The position numbers and the translations under genes were made by a program. 64,000 nt of DNA from NCBI GenBank assembly GCA_009777845.1, contig WRLD01000002.1:1-64000 (forward strand), given 5' to 3'. Origin of the DNA: Defluviitaleaceae bacterium (lineage in GTDB: Bacteria; Bacillota; Clostridia; Lachnospirales; WQUN01). The notes below the pieces were generated by a model. The model made no database searches, had not been told where the DNA came from, and worked only from the letters and a program-made list of their open reading frames with translations. Below, piece by piece: positions 3,575 to 47,079 of this stretch (position 1 is its first letter; each line of letters opens with the position of its first letter).

Positions 3575-3954
3575 ATGGAACGCGGATTTTCGCGGATTTA
3601 ACGGATTTTCGCGGATTTTTTCGGACGTTAATTAAAAATTAACGTGCCGTCCGTATTTCTGCTGTGCCTCATTCCCTCTGTGCCTCTGTGCCTCTGTGTG
3701 AAAAAATCTTTTAAACTAAAGGACGAGGCTTTACACTTTACCTAAGTTTTTTATTTATCAAAAAGATTTTTTCACACAGGAGTTCGCACAGAGGCACAAA
3801 GCAGAGGGAGCGTGGCACAGCAGGCAACGAAACGCAGATTTAATGGATTAAAAAAAACACGCCAGATAGAATCCGCGTAAATCCGCCAAATCCGCGAAAA
3901 TCCGCGTTCCATGCCTTTAAAATCCGCCAAATCCACGAAAATCCGCATTCCATA
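3570..3954. repeat. Large composite palindromic element M1 (A-B-A)
   Basis: Fills the argD to 57-aa-gene gap. The left arm reads GGCATGGAACGCGGATTTTC followed by repeated CGCGGATTT units; the right arm is its reverse complement, ending in the complement of the same sequence near 3916, with a second decayed right copy to about 3954. Between them is a B module (3659-3823). Element structure and arms recur about ten times in the window. No coding potential is seen. Confidence 0.85.
3659..3823. repeat. B module copy 1 (CACAGAGGCACAGAG palindrome)
   Basis: Begins CTGCTGTGCC and ends GGCACAGCAG. Inverted arms carry CCTCTGTG units followed by a run like TGTGAAAAAATCTTTT, and enclose a core containing TTTACACTTTACCTAAG. 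Core orientation is opposite to that of copies 4, 5 and 6 on the plus strand. Confidence 0.85.
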
Positions 3955-5098: not shown

Positions 5099-8000
5099 AT
5101 GCCGCACAGAACAGACATAAAAAAAGTTCTAATTATCGGCTCGGGGCCTATTGTAATCGGGCAGGCCTGCGAATTTGACTACTCTGGTACACAGGCTTGT
5201 CAAGCGTTAAAGAGCCTAGGCTACACGGTGGTGCTGGTAAATTCCAACCCTGCCACCATAATGACCGACCCCGACATAGCGCATATTACCTATATCGAGC
5301 CGCTTAACGTAAAACGCCTCACAGAAATTATTGCGAAGGAACGCCCTGACGCGCTGTTGCCTAACTGCGGAGGGCAGACCGCGTTAAACCTCGCAATAGA
5401 GCTGGAACGCGCAGGCGTTTTTGCGCAGTACAAGGTCGAGGTAATAGGCGTAAACTTTGCCGCGATTGAACGCGGCGAGGACAGAATCGCCTTTAAGGAA
5501 ATGATGACGGAATTAAATATAGAAATGCCGCGCTCCTCGCCTGCGTATTCCGTTGACGAGGCGGCAAGCATTGCCAAGCAGCTAGGCTATCCCTGCGTTG
5601 TACGTCCTGCGTATACCATGGGCGGCGCGGGCGGCGGAATTTGCCGTACGGAGGCGGAGCTTAGGGAGGTCGCTTCACGCGGCATAAACGCAAGCATTAT
5701 CAACCAAGTCTTAATCGAGGAAAGCGTTCTCGGGTGGGAAGAATTGGAGGTAGAGGTCGTTAGGGACGCTACTGGGCATTGTATCGCCATTTGCTTCATA
5801 GAAAATATTGACCCAATGGGTGTGCATACAGGCGATTCTATTTGCTGCGCGCCTATGCTTAACGTGAGTGACGAGGTCACGGCGCGGCTAAAGGACGCGG
5901 CGTTTAGAATAGTAAGCAAGGTGGGCGTAATCGGCGGCTGTAACTGCCAATTCTGCTACAATCCCAAGGACGGCCGTATCTGCGTAATAGAAATAAATCC
6001 GCGTACCTCTCGCTCGTCCGCGCTGGCTTCCAAGGCGACAGGCTTCCCGATTGCGCGTGTTTCCGCGCTTCTTGCGGCAGGGCTAAACCTACAGGACTTG
6101 CCCTACTGGCGCGGCGGCACTTTGGACAAGTACGAGTTTTTCGGTGATTACGTTGTGGTAAAATTTCCGCGCTGGGCGTTTGAAAAATTCCCAGGGGCTA
6201 AGGACATTTTAGGTACACAAATGAAAGCCGTGGGCGAGGTAATGAGTATCGGCAAAAACTACAAGGAAGCCATACAAAAGGCAGTACGCTCCTTGGAAAC
6301 AGGGCGTTCTGGGCTTGGCTTCGCCAAAAATTACTATTCGCTCACTAAGGAACAGCTTTTGGAAAAATTGCAATTCCCTACGGACGAAAGATTTTTTATG
6401 ATTTACGAAGCGTTACGCAAGGGCGCGACAGTGGACGAGCTTTTCGCGCTTACCGCTATTAAGCCGTTCTTTTTGAACCCCATGAAAGAGCTTGTAGAGC
6501 TAGAGGAAGAAATTCTCAAATACCGCACAAAGCCCCTGCCTAACGGCAAGCCAGTGGAACAGCCCAAGACACCGCCAGCGGGTAAATTTTTGCCCGATGA
6601 TTTGCTTGTACAAGCCAAAAAAGACGGCTTTTCCGACAAATATATTGCGTGGCTCTTGTATATCCCCGAAGCAGAACTCGCCGCACAGAGAGCCGCGCTT
6701 ATTAACAAGGGCTGGGAAGCTATACAGGTTTCTGGCGCGGAGGACGAGTTCTACTACTTTTCCACCTATTTGGCGGACAAGCCCCTACCCCACCCTGCAA
6801 GTATCAACAATAAGAAAGTAATGATACTCGGCGGCGGCCCAAACAGAATTGGACAGGGCATAGAGTTTGACTATTGCTGTGTACACGCCACATACGCATT
6901 GCGTGATATAGGCTACGAAACGGTAATGGTAAACTGCAACCCCGAAACAGTTAGTACCGATTATGATACAGCAAATAGACTATATTTTGAACCGCTTACC
7001 GTAGAAGATGTACTCGCGATTGTAAAATACGAGAAGCCCATGGGCGTGGTCGTACAGTTCGGCGGCCAAACGCCGCTAAATATCGCGCAACAGCTAAAAT
7101 CCCTCGGCGTTCCCATTTTAGGCACTTCGCCCGAAATAATAGCCACCGCCGAGGACCGCGACTTGTTCCGCGCTATGATGGAAAAATTAAACATACCCAT
7201 GCCAGAGAGCGGAATGGCAAAAACCGTGCAGGAAGCAGTGGATATAGCCAGCAAAATAGGCTTTCCGCTGATTGTACGCCCCTCGTACGTACTGGGCGGA
7301 CAGGGCATGGCGATTGTTTATAGGCTGGACGAATTAAAGGCATACATGGAGAACGCAATCGCCACCGCGGACGAGGAAATGGCACCTATTCTCATAGACC
7401 GTTTTCTCGAACGTGCCTTGGAATGTGAAGCGGACGCAATAAGTGACGGCGTAAATGTTTTTGTACCCGAAATAATCGAACACATAGAGTGTACTGGCGT
7501 TCATTCGGGCGACAGCGCGTGTACTATTCCGCATAATTCCATTTCACATGAGGCGTGTGCCACTATTTACGAATATACGCAAAAAATAGCGCAGGAGCTA
7601 GGCGTAGTGGGCTTAATGAACATTCAGTACGCCATAGAACACGGCAAGGTGTATATAATAGAAGCAAACCCTCGCGCTTCACGCACTGTGCCGCTTATTT
7701 CCAAGGTTTGCAACATACAAATGGCAAAGCTCGCCACGCGCGTAATGCTACAAGCGGCTACAGGCGAGGGCGGCTTAGATTTAAGCGCGTTAAAGCCGAC
7801 TAAGGTGAATTTTTTCGGCGTAAAGGAGTCCGTGTTTCCGTTTAATATGTTCCACGAGGTTGACCCTGTTCTCGGGCCGGAAATGCGTTCCACAGGCGAG
7901 GTCTTAGGCATGGCGAGTACGTTCGAGGCGGCGTTTGCCCTAGCGCAGGAAGCCGCAAAATGCCCCATTCCCAAGGTCGGCACGGTTCTTATTTCTTTCT

Positions 8001-43105: not shown

Positions 43106-43261
43106 ATGTTCAACCGAATGAAAACAAAAATTTTGGTAATCATAATTCTAATGGCTGTGGCGGTGACAATGGCTATTGCAATTTTTCTCTTTCTTCCGCA
43201 GAAAGAAGAACGAGAATTTGGCGGAATTTTTGTAAATAAGGAGGAAATCTGCCACCTATGA
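43106..43261 (+). CDS. Small single-pass membrane protein upstream of spoVAA (51 aa)
   Basis: ATG 43106 to TGA 43259-43261. The product starts with MFNRMKTK, then a hydrophobic stretch LVIIILMAVAVTMAIAIFLF in the pattern of one membrane helix, and a charged tail ending NKEEICHL. The stop overlaps the spoVAA start as ATGA, strongly suggesting coupled translation. The only SD-like sequence (AAAAGGGG) lies in the 3' arm of a perfect 20-bp hairpin, so translation may depend on the hairpin being open or on transcription starting inside it. I do not recognise the family. Confidence 0.6.
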   Translation: MFNRMKTKILVIIILMAVAVTMAIAIFLFLPQKEEREFGGIFVNKEEICHL

Positions 43262-43881
43262 CGATTTATATCAAGCCCAAAAAGAAAGCCATTCTGGCGG
43301 ACAAGTTCCAGATTTTGATTAAGGACGTGGCTGATGTCGTCGCTAAGGGCGACGAGGGCGAAAAAATAGGGCAGTTAAAACTTGTTACTATTAAGCATGA
43401 TGCCGAAAAAACCAAAAACTACGCCATAAGCGTGACCGACATAATAAAAAAAATCACACAGGCGTACCCCAACGCCGCGGTAAACAACGTGGGCGAGCTG
43501 GATACGTGGGTGCATTGCACGTTCGGCAAGGCTAAGGACAAGCCGCTGTTTATGTGGCTGCGCGTGTGCGTGGTTTCGCTTATTTTGATGGTCGGGGCGG
43601 CTACTGCGATTATGGCGTTTCACACGGACGGGCAAATCCCTAAGGTGTTTGAGCGGTACTACAGCATGTTATACGGCACGGAAAGCAAAAATCCGCCAAT
43701 TATCGCCATTCCGTACTGTATCGGGCTTGCGTTGGGAATAGTTGTCTTTTACAACCATTTTATGGGAAAGAAAATATCGGACGACCCTACGCCTATTGAA
43801 GTAGAAATCGAGCAGTACAATACGCAGGTGACGGAGGCGGTAATAGAGATGATTGAGAAGCAGGAACAACAAAATGCCTGA
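43258..43881 (+). CDS. spoVAA: Stage V sporulation protein AA
   Basis: A 207-residue component of the SpoVA system that moves dipicolinic acid into the forespore and out on germination. The N-terminal cytosolic domain (MTIYIKPKKKAILAD...) is followed by two hydrophobic segments (about residues 98-120 and 150-168); IPYCIGLALGIVVFYNHF and DPTPIEVEIEQYN are diagnostic. It shares ATGA with the small upstream gene, and its end overlaps spoVAB by eight bases. Confidence 0.9.
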   Translation: MTIYIKPKKKAILADKFQILIKDVADVVAKGDEGEKIGQLKLVTIKHDAEKTKNYAISVTDIIKKITQAYPNAAVNNVGELDTWVHCTFGKAKDKPLFMWLRVCVVSLILMVGAATAIMAFHTDGQIPKVFERYYSMLYGTESKNPPIIAIPYCIGLALGIVVFYNHFMGKKISDDPTPIEVEIEQYNTQVTEAVIEMIEKQEQQNA

Positions 43882-44311
43882 GCTATTGGCGCATATTCTG
43901 TCGATTATTATCGGCTTAGCCTCGGGAATGATTATTTCGGGGGCGGTGTTTGCGTTTGTTACGGCGGTGGGCGTAGTGCCGCATTTGGCGCGAAAAACTC
44001 GCACGCACGACCATGTTAGGCTTTACGAATCGGCAATTTCCATAGGCGGCATTTTTGGAACAATCGGCGGCTTTGTCAAGCTGCGTATTCCGTTTGGAAT
44101 GGTTTTCGCGCCGTTTATCGGCTTGTTCGCAGGCATTTTTTACGGCTGTCTGGCTATGGCGCTTGCGGAGGTTATCGGCGTTTTTCCTATTCTTACACGG
44201 CGCGGTCATTTGAAAAAGGGCGTTTTTGTGTTTGTTCTCGCCATTGCAGTGGGGAAATTGTGCGGTTCGCTTATGTATTTTTTGATTAAGGGGTTTTATG
44301 TCCCTAGTTAA
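43874..44311 (+). CDS. spoVAB: Stage V sporulation protein AB
   Basis: A 145-residue membrane protein with four to five hydrophobic segments. ISGAVFAFVTAVGVVPHLA, GGFVKLRIPFGMVFAP and MALAEVIGVFPILTRR match SpoVAB. ATG 43874 sits inside the spoVAA end with only a weak AGGA ahead of it, consistent with coupled translation. The next spoVA gene is 484 bases away because three tandem C repeats intervene. Confidence 0.9.
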   Translation: MPELLAHILSIIIGLASGMIISGAVFAFVTAVGVVPHLARKTRTHDHVRLYESAISIGGIFGTIGGFVKLRIPFGMVFAPFIGLFAGIFYGCLAMALAEVIGVFPILTRRGHLKKGVFVFVLAIAVGKLCGSLMYFLIKGFYVPS

Positions 44312-44316
44312 TTATT

Positions 44317-44745
44317 GTAGGGGACGGATTTATCCGTCCCGAGGTATGCACGTTCGTCAATTTGGGGTGGGTAACGTCCATTAACGCAGAGCGAGGTAAC
44401 CTCGGGACGGATAAATCCGTCCCCTACGAAACCTTGCAAATTTTGCCGCTCGTGCGTTTGGCGTGACGGTTATTTGTAGGGGACGGATTTATCCGTCCCG
44501 AGGTATGCACGTTCGTCAATTTGAGGCGGATAACGTCCATTAGCGTAAAGCGAGGTAATCTCGGGACGGATAAATCCGTCCCCTACGAAACCTTGCAAAT
44601 TTTGCCGCTTGTGCGTTTGGCGTGACGGTTATTTGTAGGGGACGGATTTATCCGTCCCGAGGTATGCACGTTCGTCAATTTGGGGTGGGTAACGTCCATT
44701 AACGCAGAGCGAGGTAGCCTCGGGACGGATAAATCCGTCCCCTAC
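44317..44745. repeat. Tandem array of three C modules with 159-bp period, inside the spoVA operon
   Basis: Three 111-bp palindromes at 44317-44427, 44476-44586 and 44635-44745 are separated by near-identical 48-base linkers containing ACCTTGCAAATTTTGCCGCT and GTGCGTTTGGCGTGACGG. Each palindrome has GTAGGGGACGGATTTATCC ends. The exact 159-base period shows recent tandem duplication. Core orientation is the same in all three, with GCACGTTC first. Confidence 0.93.
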
Positions 44746-44795
44746 GAAACCTTGCAAATAAAGGGTTTTACACACCTAATTAAGAGAGGTAAATT

Positions 44796-45245
44796 ATGGA
44801 AACATCAAAAAGTCAAGCAGTTCAAGACTACGAAAAATTAGTACGTGAAATTTCGCCTAAAAGCGCGGTTTTGTACAATAGCGTTAAGGCGTTTTTTGTG
44901 GGCGGCACTATTTGCGCCGCTGCACAGCTGCTTTACAATTTCTTTGAGGGTCGCGGATTTTCCCGTGACGATACAGGGCTTTTGGTGGCGGCGGTGTTGA
45001 TTGCGGCGGCGGTGTTGCTTACCGCGTTGCGTATTTATGACAGGCTCGCCAAGTTTGCTGGCGCGGGTACGATTGTGCCGATTACTGGCTTCGCCAACTC
45101 CATAGCCGCGCCTGCGATTGAACACAAAAAAGAGGGCATGATTTTGGGGCTAGGCGCGAAAATGTTCGTAATCGCTGGGCCTGTTATTGTTTACGGAACG
45201 GTTACCTCGGTAATTGTTGGGCTAATATATTATTTTATGAAGTAG
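44796..45245 (+). CDS. spoVAC: Stage V sporulation protein AC
   Basis: A 149-residue membrane protein, the mechanosensitive-channel-like subunit of the SpoVA system. YNSVKAFFVGGTICAAAQ, RIYDRLAKFAGAGTIVPITG and FANSIAAPAIEHKKEGMILG, then FVIAGPVIVYGT, are diagnostic. AAGAGAGG precedes ATG 44796. The operon is interrupted upstream by the C-repeat array. Confidence 0.94.
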   Translation: METSKSQAVQDYEKLVREISPKSAVLYNSVKAFFVGGTICAAAQLLYNFFEGRGFSRDDTGLLVAAVLIAAAVLLTALRIYDRLAKFAGAGTIVPITGFANSIAAPAIEHKKEGMILGLGAKMFVIAGPVIVYGTVTSVIVGLIYYFMK

Positions 45246-45254
45246 GTGCAGAAT

Positions 45255-46280
45255 ATGAAGCATTTCGGCGAATCAAGCGTAAAATTTGCGAATCCGCCCT
45301 CTATTTTGGGCGCGGCGGCAATCGTAGGCCCCAAGGAGGGCGAGGGGCCGTTGGCAAAATATTTTGACAAGGTGTCGCACGACATTTTGTTTGGCAAGGA
45401 TACATGGGAACAGGCAGAAAGCGAGCTAATGCGACAAACCATAGAAACAGCTGTAAGAAAAGCGGGCTTGCCTATGAAAGCCATAAACTACATTTTAGCA
45501 GGCGATTTGCTCAACCAAAACAGCGGCTCGATTTACGGCGCGCGTTCGTTTGAACGCCCATTTTTCGGGCTTTTTGGTGCTTGCTCCGCCATGGGAATGG
45601 GCTTGACGCTCGGCGCAATGCTTATTGACGGCGGCTTTGCGGAAAACGTAGTAGCCAACGCTTCCAGTCATTTTTGCGGCGCGGAAAAGACGTTCCGTTT
45701 TCCGCTGGAGCTAGGCACACAGCGTACGCCGACCGCTTCGTGGACGGTGACGGGCGACGGCGCGGCGGTTATTTCCGCGAACGGAAAAGGCCCGTACATC
45801 ACCGCCGCCACAACTGGCGCAATCGTAGACCTGGGGCAAAAGGACGTGAACAACATGGGCGCGGCAATGGCGCCCGCCGCCGCCGACGTAATCGCCAAGC
45901 ATTTTGGCGACCTCAGCTTGGCGAATGACTACTATGACGTAATCGCCACAGGCGATTTGGGCAAATATGGAAACAAGCTGCTCGTACAGCTTTTGCAAAA
46001 ACAGGGCTTGCATTTCGGCGATTCGCTCACCGACTGCGGTATGCTCATTTATGATGCCGAGCGGCAGGACGTACACGCAGGCGGCAGCGGTTGCGGCTGT
46101 TGCGCCGCCGTTTTGGCAGGTTATTTTCTAAATAAAATTCGCAGCGGAGAAATGAAAAAGCTACTATTTGTACCGACTGGGGCGTTGCATAGTGTGGTGA
46201 CAATTCAACAAGGGGAAACCATTCCTGCGACTGCTCACGCTGTCGCAATAGAAGCGGCTTTGCCGCATTTCTCCGAGTAA
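45255..46280 (+). CDS. spoVAD: Stage V sporulation protein AD
   Basis: A 341-residue thiolase-fold protein that binds dipicolinic acid as part of the SpoVA system. ILGAAAIVGPKEGEGPLA, YDKVSHDILFGKDTWEQAE-like sequence near the start, FGLFGACSAMGMGL with the thiolase-like Cys, and HAGGSGCGCCAAVLAGYF are conserved. ATG 45255 has AGGTG eight bases upstream; an in-frame GTG at 45246 is less likely. It is close to spoVAC (9 bases) but 245 bases from spoVAE because of a repeat. Confidence 0.94.
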   Translation: MKHFGESSVKFANPPSILGAAAIVGPKEGEGPLAKYFDKVSHDILFGKDTWEQAESELMRQTIETAVRKAGLPMKAINYILAGDLLNQNSGSIYGARSFERPFFGLFGACSAMGMGLTLGAMLIDGGFAENVVANASSHFCGAEKTFRFPLELGTQRTPTASWTVTGDGAAVISANGKGPYITAATTGAIVDLGQKDVNNMGAAMAPAAADVIAKHFGDLSLANDYYDVIATGDLGKYGNKLLVQLLQKQGLHFGDSLTDCGMLIYDAERQDVHAGGSGCGCCAAVLAGYFLNKIRSGEMKKLLFVPTGALHSVVTIQQGETIPATAHAVAIEAALPHFSE

Positions 46281-46321: not shown

Positions 46322-46484
46322 TTAAAGGCATGGAACGCGGATTTTCGCGGATTTAACGGATTTTCGCGGATTTTTTCTTACGACAATTAACGGCACTGGA
46401 ACGCACATTTTACGGATTTTATGAATTTCCGCCAGATAGAATCCGCGCAAATCCGCCAAATCCGCGCAAATCCGCGTTCCATGT
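46322..46484. repeat. Compact palindromic element M6 between spoVAD and spoVAE
   Basis: The left arm GGCATGGAACGCGGATTTTC and right arm ending GCGTTCCATG bound about 160 bases made almost only of A-type repeats; no B or C module. It is the smallest copy of the element family. Confidence 0.8.
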
Positions 46485-46525: not shown

Positions 46526-46885
46526 ATGAACATTATTTTCTGGTCATTTATAATAGGCGGCTTGATGTGTGTACTCGGGCAAATTCTAATAGACCTAACA
46601 AAGCTAAGCCCTGCGAAAATCCTTGTATTTTTTGTGGTAGCTGGCTGTATTTTGGGTGGTTTAGGAATTTACGAGCGTTTAGTAGACTTCGCAGGGGCAG
46701 GCGCAACAGTGCCTTTGCCTGGCTTCGGTAATCTGCTCGCCCGCGGCGTAAAACGCGCCGTAGACGAACGCGGCCTAATCGGCGTAATAACAGGCGGCTT
46801 TACCGCCATGGCAGGCGGCATGACCGTGGCTATTGTGTTTGGGTACTTGGCGGCGTTGGTTAGTTCTTCGGGTATGAAGGATTAG
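46526..46885 (+). CDS. spoVAE: Stage V sporulation protein AE
   Basis: A 119-residue membrane protein with four hydrophobic segments. GLMCVLGQILIDLTKLSPAK, YERLVDFAGAGATVPLPGFG and GGFTAMAGGMTVAIVFGYL are characteristic of SpoVAE/SpoVAEB. AAAGGAAG stands in front of ATG 46526. This appears to be the last spoVA gene here; no spoVAF or gerA-type gene follows. The TAG stop leads into a GGGGAG/CTCCCC palindrome at 46885-46900. Confidence 0.93.
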   Translation: MNIIFWSFIIGGLMCVLGQILIDLTKLSPAKILVFFVVAGCILGGLGIYERLVDFAGAGATVPLPGFGNLLARGVKRAVDERGLIGVITGGFTAMAGGMTVAIVFGYLAALVSSSGMKD

Positions 46886-46918: not shown

Positions 46919-47079
46919 CACGACAGCCACACAAAGCCCAAAAGACATAAATAAAACACGGATTTAACGGATTCACGCAGATTTACGCGGATTCTCCCTC
47001 GAGCCAATCCGCGTAAATCCGTGAAAATCCGCCAAATCCGTGTTTAATTTACACATTTCGGCTTCGTCCGTTTGTCGTG
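46919..47079 (+). repeat. MITE-like element E2
   Basis: Diverged left end CACGACAGCCACACAAAGCC and right end TTCGTCCGTTTGTCGTG match the 17-bp terminal repeats of E1 and E3. The interior is A-type repeat with ACGGATTTAACGGATTCACG and GAGCCAATCCGCG. About 161 bp. Confidence 0.6.

Follow-up and report, generated by a model that had tools for sequence, protein, structure and literature searches.

A probable cluster of three tandem REPINs between spoVAB and spoVAC in a Defluviitaleaceae bacterium

Background

The spoVA operon of a Defluviitaleaceae bacterium is interrupted between spoVAB and spoVAC by a tandem array of palindromes, which raises the question of whether the array is a device that regulates the operon or a mobile element that landed in it. 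We examined the array in a window of 64,000 nucleotides (the whole stretch of DNA analysed), in the genome from which the window comes (the single genome of its species in the analysis) and in 95 related genomes, 9 of which are congeners. We consider it very probable that three REPINs in tandem landed in the spoVA operon and make up the array, with a mild effect on the RNA at most. REPINs are non-autonomous elements whose spread is attributed to RAYT (TnpA_REP) transposases. An apparent operon-specific regulator thereby becomes a mobile-element insertion.

The spoVA operon and its counterparts in congeners

The genes of the operon are arranged as follows, with the Pfam model and E value in brackets:

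43258-43881, plus strand: spoVAA (PF12164, E 6e-16)
43877-44311, plus strand: spoVAB (PF13782, E 1.5e-35), with its stop codon TAA at 44309-44311
44796-45245, plus strand: spoVAC (PF03862, E 3e-41)
45246-46280, plus strand: spoVAD (PF07451, E 2e-141)
46526-46885, plus strand: spoVAE, of the SpoVAC/SpoVAEb family (PF03862, E 2.5e-34)

Directly upstream of spoVAA is a 51-residue membrane-like reading frame (43106-43261), which overlaps the start of spoVAA by 4 bases.

Matches to spoVAD were recovered in 7 of the 9 congeners, one of them having two, and these define a set of 8 operon copies for comparison. In six of the 8 copies the spoVAB stop is separated from the spoVAC start by 10-19 nt, in agreement with the remark in an earlier, sequence-only reading of this DNA that spoVA genes are usually tightly packed, whereas the corresponding gap here is 484 nt. 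The two wider congener gaps, measured to the first usable aligned start, are of about 99 nt (G002) and 173 nt (G003). The array is absent from the spoVAB-spoVAC interval in all 8 congener copies, and the loci around them yielded no GTAG hairpin. The view that palindromes in tandem split the operon is thus upheld, as the operon is compact in most congeners and split here. Inspection by eye of the congener gaps, the spoVAD-spoVAE gap of G002 excepted, revealed what looks like another hairpin element with CGGGGC...GCCCCG ends in both spoVA gaps of G003, and an element of this type also in the spoVAD-spoVAE gap of G005 (loci L051 and L048 for G003 and G005). Because an apparently different hairpin element is seen there, the spoVA gaps appear to be sites at which unrelated insertions have been tolerated repeatedly.

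Anatomy of the array

The array begins directly downstream of spoVAB and comprises the following features, named in accordance with the interpretation developed below:

44317-44427: REPIN 1, 111 bp, with the REP GTAG-GGGACGGATTTATCCGTCCC at 44317-44340 (plus strand) and an inverted REP at 44404-44427 (minus strand)
44428-44475: linker 1, 48 nt, repeated along with the REPIN
44476-44586: REPIN 2, 111 bp, 104/111 identical to REPIN 1, with REPs at 44476-44499 (plus strand) and 44563-44586 (minus strand)
44587-44634: linker 2, 48 nt, agreeing with linker 1 at 47/48 positions
44635-44745: REPIN 3, 111 bp, 110/111 identical to REPIN 1, with REPs at 44635-44658 (plus strand) and 44722-44745 (minus strand)
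44746-44759: third linker, truncated to its initial 14 nt

The sequence-only reading had described a perfect 159-bp tandem array with identical 48-base linkers. The period is indeed exact, since the three 111-bp modules (a copy number read from a draft assembly of 67 contigs) are spaced 159 and 159 bp from start to start, and the linkers do lie between spoVAB and spoVAC, but the copies differ in sequence, with modules 2 and 3 sharing only 103/111 positions, and just two linkers are full-length, these being near-identical rather than identical. Tandem Repeats Finder (TRF) scored the array at 827, with 94% matches and 0% indels. Each module is built of GTAG followed by GGGACGGAT-TT-ATCCGTCCC, a spacer, and an inverted counterpart that closes in CTAC; the first GTAG lies 5 nt past the spoVAB stop codon. 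Allowing up to 3 mismatches, the half-site yields 33 matches in the window against 0.01 expected in shuffled sequences, which excludes a chance origin of these copies; the matches represent 17 places, 16 of which score on both strands owing to the near-palindromic core.

An imperfect direct repeat of 25 nt (44287-44311 and 44759-44783), of weak significance, flanks the array. As 12 of 5000 shuffles and 17 of 1258 windows at the same offset reach such a repeat, we do not claim it as a target duplication.

GTAG-tagged hairpins elsewhere in the genome

To characterize the family we used a sample of 391,935 non-N bases of the genome, window included, in which 73 half-sites form 32 inverted pairs with GTAG outside and a spacer between, 13 of the pairs being exactly 111 bp long. 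Twenty of these pairs were aligned, the alignment set being one selected for GTAG. The tag was also evaluated without such selection: GTAG lies on one side of 59 of the 61 sites located by the core alone, and among hairpins with 8 bp or more it stands directly before 74, which makes it the commonest real tetramer in this position (masked N runs aside), followed by TAGG (73), CTCG (70) and CCTC (59), which border the same elements. The inner 6-bp stem is perfect at 72 of 74 sampled sites when any loop is allowed, compared with a mean of 33 and a maximum of 41 for shuffled arms, and the loop is TT at 72 of 74; the perfectly paired stems are of 10 different kinds. Moreover, 13 of the 32 REPINs have unlike cores at their two ends, yet each end is self-complementary in all 13, indicating that what is conserved is the individual GTAG hairpin and not a long arm-to-arm pairing. 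Outside GTAG/CTAC the flanks are unlike between many copies and form patchworks of other repeats. Six REPIN clusters, with 9 gaps of less than 400 bp, are present in the sample, the spoVA array included.

With respect to their setting, 53 of the 73 half-sites fall outside the greedily called ORFs, distributed over codirectional (32), divergent (9) and convergent (6) gaps and edges (6), and the other 20 are inside these mechanically called ORFs; the gene pairs available in the sample number 212 codirectional, 35 divergent and 42 convergent. No clear preference of REPINs for the 3' ends of genes emerges from these 73 half-sites. The elements thus display the features of GTAG-tagged REPs, namely the tag itself, a compensated short stem with a small loop and a high copy number at dispersed, mainly intergenic places, as well as the defining REPIN arrangement of two inverted REPs with GTAG outside and a spacer.

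Relationship to known REP families

The text of Di Nocera et al. 2013 (PMC3733652) describes GTAG REP families with stems mostly of 6-9 bp and many TY loops, their inverted dimers (HH dimers), both homo- and heterodimers, REPs located within genes, dimer clusters in which the adjoining DNA is repeated as well, and a bias of REPs to unidirectional and convergent gaps. Near-identical REPINs in tandem clusters that include their flanks are described for P. fluorescens in the text of Bertels & Rainey 2011 (PMC3116915), and REPs, BIMEs and TnpA_REP in that of PMC8266576, according to which E. coli BIMEs combine a REP, an inverted REP and a linker and frequently occur as several tandem copies in a row; related text is found in PMC12306157, PMC6006769 and PMC13059800. 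The elements reported here resemble the REPINs and HH dimers of PMC3116915 and PMC3733652, as set out in those texts, in having GTAG outside, a 9-bp stem and mostly a TT loop, and likewise in their inverted pairs, homo- and heterodimers, flank-including tandem clusters and hundreds of copies. They are also comparable to the E. coli BIMEs in the text of PMC8266576, with a REP and an inverted REP accompanied by a linker in tandem, but unlike the E. coli REPs with a bulge in the stem they are perfect palindromes, as are the group 3 REPs of that source. Their cores were matched to no published REP family in the text of these papers. They further differ from published REPINs and HH dimers in their host, a spore-former, and from the gap bias reported in the text of PMC3733652 in that no clear 3'-end preference is seen in our sample. 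The words 'Clostridi' and 'Firmicutes' do not occur in the main text of PMC3733652, a literature search joining RAYT, REPIN and Firmicutes found nothing, and among the matches listed for literature with GTAGGGG palindromes there was no REP family by title. The kind of element is nevertheless already known as REP/REPIN, and the array fits it in each tested feature save an exact match between the RAYT and the REPs.

Distribution among genomes

An exact 20-mer of the family occurs 527 times in the genome carrying the window as against 0 times in the 95 relatives, 9 congeners among them. The looser pattern GTAGGGGN6TTN6CCC matches 731 times in this genome, a count that is no test of GTAG conservation as the pattern itself contains GTAG, compared with 0-5 matches per relative. 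Its reversed-pattern control gave 0 matches in this genome, while in the relatives the pattern roughly equals that control, 18 of the 95 having 1-5 matches and the others 0; the congeners have 0-2 each. Some of the matches in G016, G030 and G069 are paired hairpins with other cores. An expansion of the GTAG REP family appears to have taken place in this single species. Further afield, an exact 24-mer was found, among the matches listed, in two Atribacterota MAGs, one unclassified MAG and one Clostridia MAG, and in five stretches on 4 IMG/VR contigs, and the looser pattern matches 99 times in the Atribacterota genome G097, with several paired cores, and 30 times in G098. No RAYT was detected by tblastn with three RAYTs on the IMG/VR stretches carrying the 24-mer.

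One of the IMG/VR contigs, 3300006226_000937 (L115, L119), catalogued as viral, bears REPs of the window type with a partly similar spacer, and has BLAST matches to the GCGGATTT arrays of the window described below. Given these two features it may derive from the genome of a near relative.

A RAYT-type transposase and its hairpins

A search with the Pfam Y1_Tnp model found nothing and had suggested that the genome lacks a RAYT, a conclusion overturned by an NCBIfam model and by a profile (A2) of 8 related RAYTs, the protein of this genome among them. The NCBIfam model NF047646 recovers two stretches, with E 6e-12 for the better and 3e-10 for the other; neither reaches the curated cut-off, the better one having 46 bits against the required 80. 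At E <= 0.01 profile A2 has a match in this genome only, that is in 1 of the 10 genomes of the genus, three of the congeners in this search being 71-80% complete. The same profile matches the solved TnpArep structure 4er8 with E 5e-12. The protein therefore resembles RAYT/TnpA_REP (NF047646; PDB 4er8) in its matches to the family, in having the HxH motif and the tyrosine among the invariant columns, and in the GTAG hairpins of its locus; it departs from that family in falling below the NCBIfam cut-off and in the hairpins within its own reading frame, with a core unlike that of the dispersed REPs. Congener G006 matches the broader RAYT model NF047646 (E 2.5e-9) outside this subfamily, and that locus (L136), one of the 23 comparison loci below, has no GTAG-GGG hairpin.

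We then compared loci of the subfamily, defined by tblastn at E <= 0.001 with the RAYT of this genome and two Atribacterota RAYTs, with other Y1-transposase loci. Counting over whole loci, GTAG-GGG hairpins are present at 8 of 11 subfamily loci, a set in which 3 loci are the tblastn queries themselves and in which the 8 positives include two from this genome and two from genomes picked for the REP motif, compared with 0 of 23 other loci. For loci found by protein similarity alone the count is 4 of 7, or 5 of 7 if GTAG-GGACG in L129 is included. Some of the 23 other loci match NF047646 as well as or better than our protein does, so that membership in the RAYT model alone is no predictor of hairpins. 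Judging from these sequence comparisons, the GTAG-GGG hairpins go with the RAYT subfamily and not with the RAYT model as a whole. One Atribacterota MAG has a RAYT (P0001) with GTAG-GGGTCGGATTTATCCGACCC and GTAG-GGGTTCGATTTATCGAACCC on its flanks, and these have the same 20-nt architecture as the window REPs.

In this genome the RAYT reading frame itself holds GTAG-GGGCG hairpins in frame (peptide VGAISNRP). The core of the RAYT locus, GTAGGGGCGNNNTCCNNNCGCCC, occurs at 8 sites, all on the two contigs with RAYT matches, and is other than that of the dispersed REPs, the hairpin GTAG-GGGCGATTTCCAATCGCCC standing against the dispersed-type GTAG-GGGACGGATTTATCCGTCCC. Since its hairpins have another core, this RAYT can be proposed only as a candidate mobiliser of the spoVA REPINs, and the actual mobiliser could be a RAYT that has been lost or is unassembled. 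On one contig, L140, a stretch of RAYT and a REPIN of the window type occur together, which argues against contamination. REP hairpins lie within several long reading frames, the RAYT included, at positions 5161 and 6507-6999 of L139 and 328, 1162 and 1402 of L140; by eye, the hairpin-bearing neighbours of the RAYT are putative type I restriction subunits.

Effect on the operon and alternative explanations

The direct grounds for the REPIN interpretation are the GTAG tag, the compensated hairpin of 20 nt, the inverted pairing, the hundreds of dispersed copies, the absence from this gap in the examined congeners and the RAYT gene. According to it, a RAYT-type transposase would have inserted a copy of a REPIN between spoVAB and spoVAC, after which the REPIN and its flank would have been duplicated up to three. 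For tandem REPINs the variation in copy number between strains that had been suggested is plausible. RNA folding predicts -69 to -74 kcal/mol for each module (z -10 to -12) and -260 for the whole 484-nt gap (z -15), and a transcribed module would accordingly form a very stable hairpin that is no intrinsic terminator: in a reading of the sequence a T-run is absent after all three modules, and the only terminator-like matches near the array, at 44289 and 44450, are not modules. In E. coli, REPs affect the ends of mRNAs as well as translation close to stop codons. A post-transcriptional effect of the array is possible; the hairpin might give mild protection to the spoVAA-spoVAB transcript at its 3' end, and the array might uncouple translation of spoVAC from that of spoVAB, with a slight shift in subunit ratio and no dedicated switch. 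Any effect on the operon is likely to be mild at most and confined to such RNA-level protection and uncoupling. As the sampled REPINs are without clear 3'-end preference, we see no indication that a regulatory or RNA role has been selected for.

The alternative of a selected regulatory array, acting as attenuator, insulator or forespore promoter region to set the ratio of SpoVAA/AB to SpoVAC/AD/AE, draws on the facts that the array separates AA-AB from AC-AD-AE, can adopt a very stable RNA structure and begins 5 nt past the spoVAB stop. We regard it as improbable, because the same family is found at hundreds of other sites, GTAG hairpins are missing from the loci surrounding the 8 operon copies in congeners, and the apparent other hairpin element noted by eye in the same gap of G003 suggests that the site tolerates insertions and is not a conserved device. 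The proposal that the array attenuates transcription finds no support in modules that lack a T-run and belong to a dispersed family. Nor was a forespore (sigma-G) promoter, which had been envisaged before spoVAC, seen in the gap: with a sigma-G-type consensus no site scored at least 9/11 in 44312-44795, the 4 matches of the scan lying elsewhere, and a single weak sigma-70-like match (9/12) is located at 44767 in a region that has 9 such matches against 5.6 expected.

An inflation of one or two REPINs to three in the draft assembly would be understandable for so repetitive an element in a 67-contig draft, the more so as modules 1 and 3 are one base apart; yet module 2 is unlike the others at 7-8 positions, the linkers are one base apart with the third truncated, and the sample has other REPIN clusters, so that we hold such an artefact to be improbable. 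A MITE with terminal inverted repeats of about 29 bp, moved by a DDE transposase, is highly improbable: the inverted arms of module 1 are perfect over 29 nt and the copy number of the family is high, but flanking direct duplications of 2-10 bp were found at 0 of 32 elements, and the ends vary independently while each remains self-complementary, which points to a hairpin being what is recognised at either end. The REPIN interpretation may also be extended to a recent, isolated invasion of a spore-former, in which the only RAYT of the subfamily in the genus, as searched in 10 genomes, carries its own REP hairpins in its frame, 731 REP matches accompany an independent GCGGATTT family, and a core sporulation operon is split with a measurable effect on the subunit ratio of the DPA channel; taken as a whole, this fuller scenario is rather unlikely. 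The contrast within the genus, of 731 REP matches and a RAYT with 0-2 matches and no RAYT of the subfamily, is usable for studying how REPINs invade a genome and whether host operons are perturbed.

Other repeats in the window

A second element interrupts the operon between spoVAD and spoVAE:

46329-46483: M6, an inverted array of GCGGATTT decamers, with arms at 46329-46388 and 46424-46483

The sequence-only reading had placed M6 correctly but took it for another element of the same kind, whereas it is a GCGGATTT-decamer hairpin of a different family, with arms of 60 nt each that are 83% complementary. The GCGGATTT hairpin pattern has 364 matches in this genome versus 0-1 in each of the 9 congeners, and the GCGGATTT arrays are, as far as sequence counts can tell, a second species-specific hairpin family. 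A search of the window with Rfam at gathering scores returned one tRNA and nothing more. Further inverted arrays of GCGGATTT decamers are present at 46948-47051 in the window and elsewhere throughout the genome, and short arrays with 8-bp units (CTGTGCCT, CACAGAGG and GTGCCTCT) occur in the window at 3662, 19431, 30096, 35929 and 54084.
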